From contig NZ_VYQE01000003.1 in the NCBI RefSeq assembly GCF_008710275.1, forward strand, positions 558,001 to 622,000: DNA of 64,000 nt, read 5' to 3'. The position numbers and the translations under genes were made by a program. Under the pieces are notes generated by a model. It was given only the letters and a program-made list of their open reading frames with translations. It was not told the origin of the DNA and searched no databases. Numbering within the stretch: the first letter of the stretch is position 1; every line of letters begins with the position of its first letter. This DNA is from Histidinibacterium aquaticum (lineage in GTDB: Bacteria; Pseudomonadota; Alphaproteobacteria; Rhodobacterales; Rhodobacteraceae). Below, piece after piece: positions 30,730-36,978 of this stretch.

Positions 30730-33492
30730 CTAGCGCTCGGTCAGCTTCAGCTCGATCCGACGGTTCGCCTGGCGCGCCGCGGCGCTGTCGCCCTCGACCA
30801 GCGGCTGGTACTCGCCGAACCCGTTGGCGGCGAGCCGTTCGGGCGGGAAGCCCAGGAAATCCTCCATATAGCGCACGACGGCGAGCGCCCGGGCCTGGCT
30901 AAGTTCCCAGTTGTCCTCGTAGGCCGCGCCGGGGTTCAGCGGCACGTCGTCGGTATGCCCGTCGACGCGGATCACCCAGTCGATGTCCGGCGGGATCTGG
31001 TCGGCGATGTCGCGTAGCAGGTCCGCGATCCCCGCGATCTGCTGGCGGCCCGCCTGGCTGAGTTCGGCGCCCGCGGGCGGGAAGAGAACCTCGGAGGAGA
31101 AGACGAAGCGGTCGCCCTCGATCCGCACACCTTCGCGGTCCTCGAGCAGGGCCCGAAGTTCGCCGAAGAAGTCCGAGCGATAGCGCTCCAGGCTCTCCGC
31201 CTCCTGCGCCAGCCGCGCCGCCTCGGCCTCGGCCAGCCGCCGGGCCTCCGCCTCGGCCTCGCGCTGACGGCGTTCGGCCTGGGCGGCGCGGGCGAGCGCG
31301 GTGTTGAGCTGCTGCCCCAGTGCCTCGAACTGCACGTCGGCGGCGCGGTCCTCTTCCTCGGCCATGTTGAGCAGGGTCTGGAGCGAGCCAACCTGGTCGC
31401 GGAGCTGGGCCACCTGCTCGTTGAGCAGAGCGACCTGCCGCTGGGATTCGGCCGAGAGCGCCTCTTCCTCGGTCAAGGCGCGGTTGGCCTGCGCCAGCAG
31501 GCGCTCGCGGCGCTCGGCGTCGGTCAGCCGGCGCTCGGCGAGACCCTCGGCCTCTTCGGCGCGCGCCAGCGCATCGGAGAGGCGGGCGCGAAGATCGTCG
31601 CTCCGGGCCTCGGTCTGGGCGACGGCCTCCTCGGCCTGCGACTGCGCGAGGAGCGCCTCGGCCAGGCGGTCCTCCAGCGTGGCGCGGTCGGTGCGGCGGT
31701 CGGCTGCCTCGGTGCGGGCCGCCTCGAGCTCGGCCTGCAGCGCCTCGCGGGCCATGACGGCGGAGGCGAGCCGCTGCTCGACCTCGGCGATCTCCGTCTC
31801 GCTGTCGGCCAGCGCCTCTTCCAGCGCGGCGCGGGCGGCGTCCAGATCGGCCTCGGCGGTTTCCTGAGCAGTCAGCGCCGCGGCGAGCCGGGTGGAGAGG
31901 TCCTGGACCCGTGTCTCGGTCGTGGCCTGAAGCTCCGCCACCTCCTCCTGCGCCGCGTCGCGCTCCGCGGCGAGTTCGGTCGCGCGGGCCTCGCTCGCGG
32001 CGAGGGCGGCGGTGAGCTCGGCCTCGGCGGTCTGGCGGGCAAGCAGTGCGTCGGCGAGACGCTCCTGCATCTCGGCCTCGGTCGCCTCCGCTTCGGCCAG
32101 CGCCTCGTCGAGGGCGGTCCGGGCGGCCTCCAGCTGGTCCTCCGCCGTCGTGCCCTGCGCCAGCGCGGCGGCCAGCCGGACCGAGAGGGACTCGGCCTCG
32201 GAGCGGGCCGCCGCGAGTTCCTCCTGCATCGCTTCCTGCCCGGAGACGGCGGCGGCGAGACGGGCATCGAGATCCTCCACCTCCGCCTCGGCGCTCTCGG
32301 CGCGGCTCACGGCCTCCCGCTGGGCCAGCAGCGCAGTTGCGAGGCGGCTGTCGAGATCGTCCCTGCCGGACCGCATGGCGGCGAGGGACTCTTCGGCGGC
32401 GGCCAGCTCTTCCTCGGTCGAGTCCACGAGGTCGAGGGCCGCCAGCAGCCGCGCGTCAAGCCGGTCGCGGTCCTCGGCAACCGCAGACATGCGCTCGCGC
32501 AGTTGATCCTGCAGCACCATCGCCGCGGCCAGTTCTTCGTCGACCTCCGCCTTGGCGGACTCGGCGGCCGCGAGGAGCGTCAGGGTCTCCTCGGCCTCGC
32601 GGCGCTGTTCCTCCAGCGCCAGGGTCATCGCGGTGAGTTCTTCGTCGGCGTTCGCGAGCCGTTCGCGCAGGGCCTCCGCGGCGGCGGCTTCTGCCAGCCG
32701 CTCTTCCTCCAGTTCGGTCAGACGCTCGGCATCCTCGGCGCGAGCGGTGCGCAGCTCGGCCAGGGCCTCGTCGCTCTGGGACTGTTCGCGGCGCAGGTCC
32801 TCGACCAGCGCCTGAAGCGCCTCGCGGCGGGCAGCGGCGAGACGGGCCGCCTCGGTGCTCTCGTCGATCTCGTCGCGGGCCTGGGCCAGGGCGAGGTTCA
32901 GCTGCTCCTGTTCGGAGAGGAGCTCCTCCTGCCGGGCCTCGGCGGTCTCGGCCCGTTCTTCCAGCGCCGCGATCCGGTCCCGGGCGTCGGAACGGTCGGC
33001 GAGCAGCCCCGCCACCTCCGCCTCGAAGGCGGTGATCTGCTCGGCCTGCTCGTCCACCGTGGCCTGCGCCGTGTCGCGTTCGCGGCGAAGTCCGGCGACC
33101 TGGGCCTCGAAGCCGGTGATGCGGGAGCGCGCCTGCTCCAGCGCCTCGGCGCGGTCGGCGAGGTCGGACTCCAGCGCGGCGATCCGAGACTGCGCGGCGT
33201 CCCGCGCCTCTCCGGCGGCGTCGAGCGAGGTCGTGAGGCTGCCAACCCGTTGCGCGAGGCCGGCGGAGCGGTCGCGCTCGAGTCCCAGCGCGTTTGACAG
33301 CGAGGCGACCTGGTCGGTCAGTTCCGAGATCCGGTCGTCCTGGCCGGTGATGGTCTCGCGCAGGGTGAACTGCAGGACCATGAAGATCGTGATGACGAAC
33401 ATCAGGACCAGTAGAAGGCCGGTCATCGCGTCGACGAAGCCCGGCCAGATCGACGCCTGGAACCGTGCGCCCGATCTGCGGCTGAGCGCCAT
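30730..33492 (-). CDS. MotB/OmpA-like protein with a giant coiled coil
   Basis: A 920-residue protein. The N-terminus has one membrane helix (about 19-41) starting WPGFVDAMTGLLLVLMF; Asp21 occupies the place of the proton-carrying Asp of MotB. Residues about 50-780 are almost entirely Glu/Ala/Arg/Leu-rich predicted coiled coil, with an R-L-x-x-A-[LV] motif recurring at residues 348, 383, 411, 439, 478, 535, 574, 609 and 637. The last 138 residues are an OmpA-type peptidoglycan-binding domain (VDGHTDDVPL, NWELSQARALAVVRYM, NRRIELKL). It starts 3 bp after the MotA/ExbB-like gene, so the two form a coupled pair. It is most likely a stator-like complex; its task is unknown. Confidence 0.85.
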   Translation of the reverse strand: MALSRRSGARFQASIWPGFVDAMTGLLLVLMFVITIFMVLQFTLRETITGQDDRISELTDQVASLSNALGLERDRSAGLAQRVGSLTTSLDAAGEARDAAQSRIAALESDLADRAEALEQARSRITGFEAQVAGLRRERDTAQATVDEQAEQITAFEAEVAGLLADRSDARDRIAALEERAETAEARQEELLSEQEQLNLALAQARDEIDESTEAARLAAARREALQALVEDLRREQSQSDEALAELRTARAEDAERLTELEEERLAEAAAAEALRERLANADEELTAMTLALEEQRREAEETLTLLAAAESAKAEVDEELAAAMVLQDQLRERMSAVAEDRDRLDARLLAALDLVDSTEEELAAAEESLAAMRSGRDDLDSRLATALLAQREAVSRAESAEAEVEDLDARLAAAVSGQEAMQEELAAARSEAESLSVRLAAALAQGTTAEDQLEAARTALDEALAEAEATEAEMQERLADALLARQTAEAELTAALAASEARATELAAERDAAQEEVAELQATTETRVQDLSTRLAAALTAQETAEADLDAARAALEEALADSETEIAEVEQRLASAVMAREALQAELEAARTEAADRRTDRATLEDRLAEALLAQSQAEEAVAQTEARSDDLRARLSDALARAEEAEGLAERRLTDAERRERLLAQANRALTEEEALSAESQRQVALLNEQVAQLRDQVGSLQTLLNMAEEEDRAADVQFEALGQQLNTALARAAQAERRQREAEAEARRLAEAEAARLAQEAESLERYRSDFFGELRALLEDREGVRIEGDRFVFSSEVLFPPAGAELSQAGRQQIAGIADLLRDIADQIPPDIDWVIRVDGHTDDVPLNPGAAYEDNWELSQARALAVVRYMEDFLGFPPERLAANGFGEYQPLVEGDSAAARQANRRIELKLTER

Positions 33493-33495
33493 CGC

Positions 33496-34656
33496 CTACC
33501 CTTCCCGTTCCGTCGCGCGGCCTCTCATCGAGCGGCCCAGCGCCGCGAGGTCCGTGCGCAGGTCCTCGACAACCTCCTGACGGCCGGCGGCCATCTCCTC
33601 GAGGATGCGCAGGAGCTGCACGTCGATGCTCCTTAGCCGCATCCGGCTTTCCGCGTCGATCCCCTCGATGCCGCTGTCGGAGATCACTTTAATGAGACGC
33701 TCCTGCCCTTCGGCCACGCGTCCGAGCTGGTCGGAGAGGGTCGTGCCCGCCTCCATCTTCTGGGCCAGCGCCTCCATCGAGGCGGCGAGATCGCCCAGAC
33801 GCTCGTCGACCGCCGCGCGGCCGATGTCGGTCTGGGTGAACATCATCTGCAGCGCTTCCATCTGCTCGGCGAGGTTGTCGATCACCTGGCCCATGACCCC
33901 GGCCTCGCCGCCGCCCTCCTCGCCAGAGATGCCGACGCGGGTGATGGTGGAGAGCCATTCCTCCAGCTCGCGGTAGAAGCGGTTCTGCCCGTGGCCGGCC
34001 AGCAGCTCCAGCAGGCCGAGGACCAGCGAACCGGCGAGGCCGAGCAGCGAGGAGGCGAAGGCCACGCCCATGCCGCCCAGCTGCGTCTGCAGCCCGTCCT
34101 GCAGCCGGTTGAAGATGTCCGCGCCGCTCTCGCCCTCTTCGGCGGAGAGCGAGCCGATGGTCTGCACGAGCCCGGGCACGGTCGTCGCGAGCCCGTAGAA
34201 GGTGCCCAGAAGACCGAGGAAGATCAGCAGGTTGACGATATAGCGCGAGATCTCGCGGTCCTCGTCGATCCGCTGCGCCACGGACTCCAGGATCGAGCGT
34301 GAAGAGGTCGCCGAGAGCTGCATCCGCGCGCCCCGTGATCGCAGGAGCGTCGCGAGCGGCGCCAGCAGGCCCGGCGGCGAGGTCAGGTCGTGTCCCGGAC
34401 GTTCCGCCGCGAAGCCCTCGATCCAGCGCACCGACTGGATGATCTGCGCGACCTGCAGGAAGACGTAGCCCACGCCCACCACGAAGACGAGGCCGATGAA
34501 GCCGTTGAGGTAGGGGTTCGCGGCGAAGACCGGCCCCACCCGCGGAAGGGCGAACCAGACACCCACGGCGACGAGCGCCAGCACGATCAGCATGAGCGTG
34601 ACCGGGCGACGGGGCTGTGAAAACTGCGGCTCTGCCTCGGGGGACCGTTTGGCCAT
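33496..34656 (-). CDS. MotA/TolQ/ExbB-like proton channel protein
   Basis: A 386-residue inner-membrane protein with four predicted helices (about 19-37, 49-73, 143-170, 190-220). The pair of helices in NLLIFLGLLGTFYGLATTVPG and QLGGMGVAFASSLLGLAGSL matches the pore helices of the MotA/ExbB family, including the conserved GT-F-GL and Gly-rich turns. A long C-terminal cytoplasmic helical tail (about 225-386) ends in an amphipathic segment. The start at 34656 gives MAKRSPEAEPQ; the frame is open upstream but without features. It is followed after 3 bp by the MotB-like partner. No flagellar or Tol genes are nearby. Confidence 0.85.
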   Translation of the reverse strand: MAKRSPEAEPQFSQPRRPVTLMLIVLALVAVGVWFALPRVGPVFAANPYLNGFIGLVFVVGVGYVFLQVAQIIQSVRWIEGFAAERPGHDLTSPPGLLAPLATLLRSRGARMQLSATSSRSILESVAQRIDEDREISRYIVNLLIFLGLLGTFYGLATTVPGLVQTIGSLSAEEGESGADIFNRLQDGLQTQLGGMGVAFASSLLGLAGSLVLGLLELLAGHGQNRFYRELEEWLSTITRVGISGEEGGGEAGVMGQVIDNLAEQMEALQMMFTQTDIGRAAVDERLGDLAASMEALAQKMEAGTTLSDQLGRVAEGQERLIKVISDSGIEGIDAESRMRLRSIDVQLLRILEEMAAGRQEVVEDLRTDLAALGRSMRGRATEREG

Positions 34657-34735: not shown

Positions 34736-35275
34736 TCAGGCGCCCCCTGAGCCCGATATGTCGCGCACGCGCGCCACCAGCCAGTCCATGTCGGGATCAT
34801 GAATGCCGAGTTCGGTCAGATGCGAGGCTGTATTGGTCAGGTACTCGTCGTTCGGCCCCCGCCCGCCGCGGGCCCGCGCGATGAGCCGCGCCTGCCGTTC
34901 GAGGTCGTATTGCACGTACTGCCGGTGCTCGGGATCGATGACGTAGGCCAGGGCCGGCACCTCGCGCCCGTCGGTGAGCGAGAGGGTCACGCCGGTCTCG
35001 TAGTAGGCCGAGGAAATCAGCTCGCGCTCGCGCAGGTAGGCCAGCACCTGCTCTTCCTCCTCGGCCCGGACCTTGAGCGCCAGCCCGGTGCAGGAGGCTC
35101 CCTCCTGCAGGTCGAGCGCGAGGACGAGGCCCGGCTCCTCCTCGGTGCCGCGGTGATGGACCGAGAGCATGCAGAACGAACGGTGATAGCCCTCGAGCCG
35201 GGCGAGCACCGACTCCTCCGGCGTGAAGCCGGGGTTCCAGAGAAGGGATCCGTAGCCGAAGACCCAGAGTGTCAT
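34736..35275 (-). CDS. Gamma-glutamylcyclotransferase, ChaC-like
   Basis: A 179-residue enzyme of the ChaC family, which cleaves glutathione or gamma-glutamyl peptides to 5-oxoproline. The substrate-binding loop FGYGSLLWNPGF is at 6-17, followed by GYHRSFCMLSVHHRGTEEEPGLVLALD, the catalytic Glu region SAYYETGV and ALAYVIDPEHRQYV. No signal peptide. It lies 79 bp from the MotA-like gene on the same strand, perhaps independent, and is divergent from the DUF2125 gene. Confidence 0.93.
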   Translation of the reverse strand: MTLWVFGYGSLLWNPGFTPEESVLARLEGYHRSFCMLSVHHRGTEEEPGLVLALDLQEGASCTGLALKVRAEEEEQVLAYLRERELISSAYYETGVTLSLTDGREVPALAYVIDPEHRQYVQYDLERQARLIARARGGRGPNDEYLTNTASHLTELGIHDPDMDWLVARVRDISGSGGA

Positions 35276-35407: not shown

Positions 35408-36112
35408 ATGAAACGCCTGATCGCCATGATCCTCGTCTTCGCCGTGGCATGGTCCGCGCTCTGGCTCTGGACCTCCCGCGCGACCCTTCGGGAGGCGCGG
35501 GCGCTGGCCGGTGACCTGCGCGCCGCGGGCTGGGAGATCGACTACGCGGACCTCAACGTCCGCGGCTTCCCCTCCCGCCTCGACCTGACGGTCGACGAGC
35601 CGCGGGTGACCACGCCGCAAGGGGCCGAATGGCGCGCGCCCTTCGTCCAGCACCTCCAGCTCACCTACCAGCGCGACCGGGCGATCATCGCCTTCGCCGA
35701 CAGCCAGACGCTCGTGCTCGACGGCACGGAAGTCCGGGTGAGCGACACCGGCCTGCGCGCGAGCCTATACGAGGGCCGCTTCACGGCAGAGGCCGAGGAC
35801 ATGGTCTTCGACTGGGAGGGCGGCCGGCTCACCGCCGGCCCCATCCTCGCGGCGCTGCGCCCGAACGGCGAGCCCGGCCGCTACGACCTCTTCCTCGAGG
35901 CGCAGAACGCCTCCGCCGACGAGACCCCGCTCGGCACCGTCACAATCGAGGCCGTCGCCCGCCTCGCGGCGCCGCTCGACCGGGACGAGCCGCCCCGCCT
36001 GGAAGGCGTCGAGGTGACGGCGCTGACGGTGCCCCGCAACCCCGAGGCGCTGGAAGAGACGCTGACCACGCTCTCGGCCGATACGGCCGAGGCGCTCGCT
36101 CAGCGGCAGTAG
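35408..36112 (+). CDS. DUF2125 domain-containing protein
   Basis: A 234-residue protein with an N-terminal membrane helix or uncleaved signal (about 4-22), then a domain with the DUF2125 features LAGDLRAAGWEIDYADLNVRGFPSRLDL and VQHLQLTYQRDRAIIAF. The family is an alphaproteobacterial envelope protein of unknown role. The 3' end overlaps the end of the convergent extensin-like gene by 13 bp. ATG at 35408 follows CAAGGAGCGCCG. I cannot judge whether the C-terminus is full length compared with other members. Confidence 0.82.
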   Translation: MKRLIAMILVFAVAWSALWLWTSRATLREARALAGDLRAAGWEIDYADLNVRGFPSRLDLTVDEPRVTTPQGAEWRAPFVQHLQLTYQRDRAIIAFADSQTLVLDGTEVRVSDTGLRASLYEGRFTAEAEDMVFDWEGGRLTAGPILAALRPNGEPGRYDLFLEAQNASADETPLGTVTIEAVARLAAPLDRDEPPRLEGVEVTALTVPRNPEALEETLTTLSADTAEALAQRQ

Positions 36113-36978
36113 CTTCCTGACCGGTAGCTCGCCGTATCGAAGTGGAAGTGGTCGCGGTGCGCGGCGTTCGAGTCGGGGCCCAGAACGGTCCCGAAGATGC
36201 CGCAGGCCGACCGGTGCATCTGCCGCAGTTGCGCGCCGTCGTCCCGGGTCGACCAGCCGCGCAACACCGAGATCGACGAGCCGTCCGCGAGACGGATGCC
36301 GCCGATGTCGATGGCCCGGCCGAAGGAGTGCTCGCTGAGCCGCGCGGTCGAGACGCCGTTGCGGCCCCGGCAGATGTAATCGGCCATCACCCGCATCTCG
36401 ACGGGCCCGCCGCCCTCGTTGCCCACGGCGGGCTTGAGCCCGCTCTCCACCCAGCTCTTGAGCGCGCGGGCGGTATTGCAGTCGAGCGTCGCGGGACTGG
36501 AGAGCGCGACGCCGGCCACCGAGCGCACGCGCACCGCGCCCTCGATGCCGCAGGCCCCGTTGCCCGGTACGCGACCGACGCGCTCGCCCTGGATCGCCGG
36601 ATCGCCGCAGACCGCACCGCGCCGCCGCTGGTCTGCGAGCGCCGTGGCCCGCGCGAGGATGGCGGGCGGGCGCAACGTGGGCCGTTCCGTCCGGGCCGGG
36701 GCGAGGGCCGAGATCTCGACCTGGTACCACTCGGCGCGCGCAGCGCCTCCGGTGATCGTGACGGGATCGATCGGATCGCGCATCTCGGGGCGGAGTGACG
36801 ACCCCGGAGCGATCTCGGACACGTTGTACCAGGGGGCCTGGGAGGTGGAGGTCGTGACCGTGGCGTGCGGCGGGGCATCGGCGGCCGACCGCGCCTCGGG
36901 CCGGATCGAGCGGTCCGGAGCCTCGGCCCCGGCGGTTCCCGCGAGAACGAGAAGGGCGAGCGCCAGCGCAGCCCTCAC
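36100..36978 (-). CDS. Extensin-like D-Ala-D-Ala peptidase-related exported protein
   Basis: A 292-residue protein with a short signal peptide (about 1-18). After a low-complexity region, the extensin-like C-terminal domain (from about residue 140) contains GNGACGIEGAVRVRSV, LDCNTARALKSWVESG, SEHSFGRAIDIGGIRL and HRDHFHFD: the His/Asp/His set of LAS-type (VanY-like) peptidases, with paired cysteines. It probably works on peptidoglycan in the periplasm. The start is a GTG at 36978 that overlaps the tyrA stop by four bases (GTGA), so it is co-translated with tyrA, which is an unusual operon partner. Confidence 0.85.
   Translation of the reverse strand: MRAALALALLVLAGTAGAEAPDRSIRPEARSAADAPPHATVTTSTSQAPWYNVSEIAPGSSLRPEMRDPIDPVTITGGAARAEWYQVEISALAPARTERPTLRPPAILARATALADQRRRGAVCGDPAIQGERVGRVPGNGACGIEGAVRVRSVAGVALSSPATLDCNTARALKSWVESGLKPAVGNEGGGPVEMRVMADYICRGRNGVSTARLSEHSFGRAIDIGGIRLADGSSISVLRGWSTRDDGAQLRQMHRSACGIFGTVLGPDSNAAHRDHFHFDTASYRSGSYCR

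Follow-up and report, generated by a model that had tools for sequence, protein, structure and literature searches.

Stators of the MotAB and ZorAB type hold a dimer of B subunits inside a pentamer of A subunits, and the flow of ions past an aspartate turns one against the other. A 64,000-nucleotide stretch of the Histidinibacterium aquaticum genome (GCF_008710275.1, contig NZ_VYQE01000003.1, positions 558,001 to 622,000; hereafter the window) carries a pair of adjacent genes, here called A and B, that resembles such a stator and in which about 720 residues of coiled coil lie between the transmembrane aspartate of B and its wall-binding end. The question raised by this locus is how a stator with so long a coil is arranged in the cell envelope, and what it may do there. 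The results below suggest, in a judgement that is evenly balanced, that the pair is a wall-anchored, ion-driven, non-flagellar motor related to ZorAB and MotAB, in which two B chains form a continuous, parallel, rod-like dimer.

The B coil and the A subunit

The two ends of B are those of a MotB-type subunit. Asp21 lies within the motif WPGFVDAM at the start of a single predicted transmembrane helix, and the C-terminal end is an OmpA domain (PF00691, Table 1). An original prediction made from the sequence alone had named both the transmembrane aspartate and a C-terminal peptidoglycan-binding domain, and both are borne out. The aspartate is kept in all 77 credible B open reading frames (ORFs) found outside the window's family with a model of the C-terminal end, as WPGxVD in 74 and as WPSFVD, WPAFVD or WPGFID in 3; an ORF of 1175 amino acids (aa) at locus L217 was left out of this count, being taken as a shadow frame. 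The suggestion of a new device needs correction, as B is a long member of a named NCBI family, PRK09039 'peptidoglycan -binding protein' (NCBIfam NF006542; 750.4 bits against a curated cut-off of 388).

Residues 49-769 of B, 721 in all, contain no proline and, at 0.1485 nm per residue, would have a straight length of about 107 nm, in agreement with the 730 residues and roughly 110 nm first estimated. A heptad hidden Markov model (HMM) learned from 71 loci, all of them outside the window's family, scores this coil at z = 21 relative to 30 shuffles. When the coil is divided into five segments, each reaches z = 6.0-13.0 with the outside-trained model and z = 5.4-14.9 with a model from the window's family minus the window and locus L051, and in each segment the real score is reached by 0 of 200 shuffles. 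The heptads of the window coil need three or four phase breaks (the number varies by analysis), whose positions depend on the model. The heptad models thus leave the predicted coiled coil in place. The learned core has I/V/L at position a and L at position d, which suits a parallel dimer, as is familiar from work on GCN4.

These properties are shared by relatives of B. Proline is absent from all 77 coils of the window's family (36,397 residues) and from 37 of the 39 coils measured outside it, per-protein shuffles on 38 of the 77 family coils give z of at least 11.5, and multiples of 7 account for 13 of the 14 top self-similarity lags in 74 family coils and 14 of 14 in 52 coils from outside. 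An exact 35-residue repeat, suspected from a few lengths, was rejected: self-similarity is strongest at a lag of 28, and 8 of the 12 top lags of the window are multiples of 7. Tandem DNA arrays in the coil were likewise rejected, with just four short, low-scoring rows found.

The matches of the A subunit to stator proteins are weaker. A scores 14.5 bits with Pfam MotA_ExbB, below the cut-off of 22.9, and its best named matches are ZorA models (PADLOC ZorA, at most 41 bits). The predicted structure (predicted local distance difference test, pLDDT, 71; predicted template modelling score, pTM, 0.52) matches TolQ and ExbB first (Z to 11.6), followed by ZorA (10.3) and MotA (9.4), while unrelated helical bundles reach 9.7. 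Chains of these four proteins head the matches, consistent with the description of the pair as MotA/ExbB plus MotB. Foldseek returned no match for A under E 1e-3, and the only matches of a PDB profile search with A1 were of coiled-coil type and fell in the tail. This tail has predicted helices at residues 251-302, 307-327, 335-356 and 361-385 (pLDDT about 50-65) and, by analogy with ZorA, would lie in the cytoplasm.

An HMM of the A core separates A from other stator proteins, giving 110-213 bits for 19 family members, 34-47 for nine ZorA proteins, 15-32 for six proteins of another small group, 6-13 for 17 TolQ/ExbB-type rows collected with PF01618, 7-8 for E. coli TolQ, ExbB and MotA, and below 0 for the MotA-like protein L002 of the window's own genome. 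A tree built from 55 rows and 129 columns places A and ZorA on one branch (98/96), apart from TolQ, ExbB and MotA. ZorA forms one clade (100/100) and the A family is unbroken in 11% of bootstraps, so that the tree leaves undecided whether ZorA lies beside or inside the A family. The nine ZorA comparators score 787-1293 bits with PADLOC ZorA3 models; the comparison therefore concerns type III, and types I and II lie outside the tree. Judged by sequence, the nearest known relative of A is ZorA.

Conserved residues bear on whether the pair is active. Residues T152, T159 and S203 of A are invariant in 26 sequences, which is compatible with the Ser/Thr ring described for ZorAB in the available text of PMC11890865. 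A passive link from the inner membrane to the wall, serving as tether or spacer, would also explain a protein with this architecture and a wall-binding end, but it would not call for the conserved transmembrane aspartate, the invariant Thr/Ser residues or the full A subunit kept beside B. A pair devoid of motor activity is consequently considered distinctly unlikely. The conserved aspartate and the kinship of A instead point to the proton-driven mechanical device first proposed, although this would remain a deduction from sequence.

Rod length and heptad register

Rod length was measured from WPG to the RSEFFG-type motif ahead of the OmpA domain. The 80 named loci of the window's family hold 76 complete B genes, 3 that are cut off and 1 (L104) without a partner by motif; 75 of 77 rods were measurable, the window included (L060 and L065 dropped). 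A further 80 loci outside the family were chosen from the matches listed, 76 from the window's class and 4 from another class. Here 71 of 72 rods were measurable (L167 dropped), and eight loci were untaken as B was missed by the motif or the choice of ORF (L161, L162, L199, L207, L221, L222, L224 and L240); an HMM found B in five of these and a partial B in L240.

Outside the family, rod length modulo 7 leaves 5 in 52 of 71 proteins, 2 in 11, 1 in 7 and 6 in 1, with 0, 3 and 4 never seen. Phases 2 and 1 result from one four-residue stutter in either direction, so that 18 rods are one stutter off the main phase and 1 is two stutters off. Among the 39 distinct lengths, 26 fall in phase 5, 9 in phase 2, 3 in phase 1 and 1 in phase 6 (binomial p = 1e-13 for the main phase, for related rows and distinct lengths that are not independent events). 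A scan of divisors 3 to 22 singles out only 7 and its multiples, and two controls are flat modulo 7: the lengths of X, a gene described below (n = 56), and part of A (n = 23 measurable loci). Indels between 21 close pairs, some of which share members, tell a similar story, with 30 of 50 being multiples of 7, 10 leaving 3, 9 leaving 4 and 1 leaving 1. What is new in these B proteins is that rod length changes mostly by whole heptads, despite a spread of 16-143 nm.

Rods measure 16-107 nm outside the family (median 30, 71 proteins) and 40-143 nm within it (median 65, 75 proteins), where long coils are the rule. The periplasm is about 20-30 nm wide. The rods of the window's family, which are longer than this, cannot stand upright; if continuous, they would have to bend or to run along the wall. 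Very long rods also occur in a second lineage, at L203 and L204 (family f75, outside the window's), where B has 883 and 911 aa.

The wide range of lengths suggests that rod length may be unselected, drifting by gain and loss of heptads while only the register and the two ends matter. This explanation is about as easy to accept as to doubt, and it is compatible with a motor carrying a continuous rod. B varies 2.5-fold (462-1157 aa in 76 complete proteins) beside an A that is steady at about 380-440 aa, and B has 920 aa in the window and 796 aa in L051, though their A proteins are 87% identical. Length hardly tracks guanine-cytosine content (rho 0.23, p 0.05 in the window's family; 0.05 outside), and growth of the coil driven by base composition was set aside as a weak effect. 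The lengths of A and B are correlated (rho 0.38, p 0.001, uncorrected for kinship). Against free drift, no coil under about 40 nm occurs among the 75 of the window's family, so some lower limit may exist.

Distribution and gene neighbourhood

The pair belongs to the ordinary gene set of Alphaproteobacteria. Nearly all genomes of the window's family (59 of 61) carry A, and so do 189 of 289 in its class, or 162 of 235 when those of good quality alone are counted; B stands beside A in related loci, in line with the conserved pairs that the original prediction proposed to look for. Most named relatives are from Rhodobacteraceae, which places the class as Alphaproteobacteria. Across the phylum, A matches in 84 of 299 genomes, 59 of the same family or class and 25 outside (5 strong, 20 weak); of the weak matches, 16 of 20 were fetched, and 9 are ZorA3 and 7 a different small group. 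Six loci (L246, L247, L249, L252, L254 and L255) hold a different A-like protein of 331-357 aa, followed in L246, L249, L252 and L254 by a MotB-like gene of 260-276 aa (one cut off) that starts near EVFSDMALL or EIFSDMALL and has no match to the B end model; by its sequences, this group is another stator-like pair. Locus L240 (3211-5736) is divergent in order and proportions, with a B-like gene (255 aa, no end-domain match) preceding an A of 563 aa. At L043 (G162) the A frame holds one in-frame TAA, and the larger stretch L172 gives an ORF of 379 aa; the true start of A is probably downstream of the TAA.

An auxiliary flagellar stator would account for the MotB-type wall-binding domain of B, and FliG matches are present in the window's genome. 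FliG was found in 170 of 289 class genomes, some of which are incomplete; 115 have both, 74 A only, 55 FliG only and 45 neither (p = 0.38). As 74 of 189 A carriers have no FliG match and no association is seen, the pair is not tied to flagella. Furthermore, A scores far below its own family with MotA. A flagellar role is thus extremely improbable, and the expectation that the pair stands apart from the known flagellar and Tol systems is upheld.

Similarly, the matches of A and B to ZorA and ZorB models and the branch shared by A and ZorA could be taken to indicate a Zorya-like anti-phage system. The surroundings argue otherwise. No Zorya model appears among the PADLOC matches of 10 neighbouring proteins (E 0.01), with zorC, zorD and zorE not seen, and A is carried by 59 of the 61 family genomes in conserved surroundings. 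The long coil, moreover, is in B and not in A. A defence role is very improbable.

The A and B genes lie on the minus strand in that order, with 3 bases between the A stop and the B start (Table 1). Their neighbours include a HAGH-type hydrolase, a ClpA-type ATPase, ChaC, an extensin-like protein and prephenate dehydrogenase among others, and the Pfam matches are to housekeeping proteins. The predicted absence of flagellar, Tol and Zorya genes nearby agrees with the neighbours searched: by Pfam, tolA, tolB and pal are not beside the pair, in a search for flagellar or Tol genes that took in the neighbours and did not extend to all ORFs of the window. The two PF01618 matches and the TolQ-like match of the genome are on another contig. 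Rfam has no match anywhere in the window. Within the family, ChaC is a constant neighbour (79 of 80 loci; no share in function is claimed for it), and ClpA is present in 54 of 67 loci with full flanks. An Extensin-like_C protein (PF06904; window 36100-36975, minus strand) is close to the pair and present in 44 of 80 family loci; it carries H..G.A.D and H.H motifs that, by eye, we take to be reminiscent of wall peptidases. Outside the family, genes that are presumably fba, thiE, efp and suhB, named from their sequences, often lie ahead of the pair.

Table 1. Coordinates of the A and B genes, their parts and the adjacent ChaC-like gene in the window
Feature	Position	Strand	Evidence
A subunit, MotA/TolQ/ExbB/ZorA-type membrane protein with helical C-terminal tail, 386 aa	33496..34656	-	Translation, ZorA models, predicted helices and fold
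A C-terminal helical tail, residues 251-385	33502..33906	-	Predicted helices, pLDDT about 50-65
B subunit, PRK09039-type MotB-like protein, 920 aa	30730..33492	-	NF006542, 750 bits against cut-off 388
B Asp21 codon, candidate ion-binding residue of transmembrane helix	33430..33432	-	Kept in 77 of 77 credible outside B ORFs
B coiled-coil rod, residues 49-769, proline-free	31186..33348	-	Heptad HMM, shuffles, composition
B OmpA-type peptidoglycan-binding domain, residues 803-911	30760..31086	-	PF00691 2.8e-17; closest solved structures PomB and MotB
ChaC-like gene, 79 bases upstream of A, same strand	34736..35275	-	PF04752 7.6e-44

A further gene, X, immediately precedes A in the same orientation at 56 of the 80 loci from outside the family (loci L161-L240, e.g. 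L164:2746-3978). The middle of the X protein is rich in proline, PF00691 (OmpA) matches all 3 proteins tested, and by eye X looks like a secreted protein. A search of 21 genomes matched X in 11, with 5 strong matches, all outside the window's family and two of them in G062 and G064. The window's genome has one weak match (4.1e-6), which is probably Pal because it is about 3.4 kb from the TolQ-like gene. No link between the absence of X and a long B is claimed: L203 and L204 lack X, but so do 20 other loci with shorter B.

A possible motor and its relation to known systems

Several known systems share parts of this architecture. PRK09039 (NF006542 to NF006546) has the same N-terminal transmembrane helix with Asp, coil and OmpA domain, and its 627-position model already contains long coils. 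B is longer (920 aa, with a coil of about 720 residues), and the family carries no stated function, the pairing with A and X and the length rule being absent from its name. The Zorya motor ZorAB (8qyd, 8vvn; PADLOC ZorA3) resembles the pair in the transmembrane Asp and wall-binding domain of B, and among the rows tested ZorA is closer to A than TolQ, ExbB and MotA are. The long coil in Zorya is in the cytoplasmic tail of ZorA (described in the available part of PMC11890865), whereas here it is in B and A has just 386 aa; ZorB is short, with 208-225 aa at eight of nine loci, while the remaining ORF, of 444 aa, overlaps ZorA. The flagellar motors MotAB and PomAB are similar in the transmembrane Asp and OmpA-type end of B, which is nearest to PomB and MotB, but A scores 7 bits against E. 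coli MotA and FliG is not needed. TolQR and ExbBD resemble A in predicted fold (Z up to 11.6, beside 9.7 for unrelated helical bundles), but B differs in carrying an OmpA domain. In the accessible text of PMC12505986 two classes of motor are set apart, flagellar motors whose B is OmpA-type and generic motors whose B lacks this domain; by those classes, the present pair is non-flagellar yet has an OmpA-type B.

One experimental study may concern a related pair. As described in the available portion of PMC6570709, MotA (348 aa) and MotB (321 aa) from Komagataeibacter hansenii, which has no flagella, were overexpressed, which gave longer cells in chains and colonies that spread more; green fluorescent protein (GFP) fusions were polar and the shape of E. 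coli was unchanged. These proteins resemble the present pair in their sizes, adjacency, OmpA-like MotB and host without flagella, and the rod is short there. They are probably a short form of the present family and can be regarded as candidate orthologs. No mechanism for the present pair was found among the literature matches listed, which leave most subscription journals outside their coverage. A precedent for a force-transmitting coil of constrained length and continuous heptads is offered by the arms of SMC proteins, as far as the available text of PMC5344682 describes them; SMC is an unrelated protein, and the length modes given there are of about 100 residues.

Based on these comparisons, the following mechanism can be proposed. 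By analogy with MotAB and ZorAB, two B helices would sit in an A pentamer, a 5:2 arrangement, with Asp21 as the ion carrier. From the membrane outwards the two B chains would form a single continuous rod, a parallel coiled coil whose OmpA-like domains hold the peptidoglycan at the far end. With B fixed to the wall in this way, ion flow would rotate A and its tail against the rod, or load the rod in torsion, and so act on the envelope. The long rods of the window's family (40-143 nm) would lie along the wall or bend. Action on the envelope at the poles or division sites is suggested, with low confidence, by the accessible part of the one Komagataeibacter study.

A different arrangement of the coil, and several other observations, weigh against this mechanism. 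The AlphaFold monomer of B, a low-confidence model (pLDDT 62.8, pTM 0.30), breaks the helix at residues 277-283, 446-450 and 625-630, and the Ala-rich middle of the coil scores near zero relative to its own composition (48% of 28-residue windows above 0), so that the core is weaker there. Of the 75 rods measured in the window's family, phase 5 accounts for 24, phase 1 for 18, phase 2 for 19 and other phases for 14; the rod of the window itself, in phase 0, is among the 14 that fit neither the main phase nor one stutter. The heptad rule is therefore loosest in the family with the longest rods. An earlier end motif, which missed nine proteins, placed 35 of 39 rods in the main phase outside the family and 26 of 77 inside. 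In addition, the structural scores of A overlap those of unrelated helical bundles, the Komagataeibacter genes are candidate orthologs by size, adjacency and OmpA domain, and X is present in two genomes (G062 and G064) where A was not found, which makes X a candidate partner only. Confidence in the proposed motor is limited by the loose phase rule in the window's family and by the finding of X without A.

The helix breaks, Ala-rich middle and off-phase lengths would be explained if the coil folded back as an antiparallel helical bundle, making B a compact periplasmic part. Heptads, however, cross all three predicted breaks in phase, and the breaks weigh less as the model is of a single chain without its partner. 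Loops would take any length, yet lengths and indels follow heptads and stutters. Together with the a/d core of I/V/L and L and the absence of proline in 77 of 77 family coils, these lengths favour a continuous parallel rod, and folding back is unlikely. It had been argued that a coil of this length must fold back, bundle or run along the wall; a rod that lies along the wall or bends is retained from that list, while fold-back and bundling are disfavoured.

A bolder form of the continuous-rod motor is doubtful but can be stated: the pair may be a housekeeping sister of the Zorya motor, a wall-anchored rotary motor with its long coil outside rather than inside the cell, in which a register-locked rod of the B dimer carries torsion or force along the wall for as much as about 140 nm, several times the width of a periplasm, with selection acting on the phase between motor and anchor. 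The stator-like pair occurs in about two thirds of the sampled genomes of its class, has no function assigned to it in the papers searched, and is probably the subject of one study. A rod that exceeds the width of the periplasm raises the question of how such a motor would lie in the envelope, and the kinship of A with ZorA bears on the origin of Zorya.

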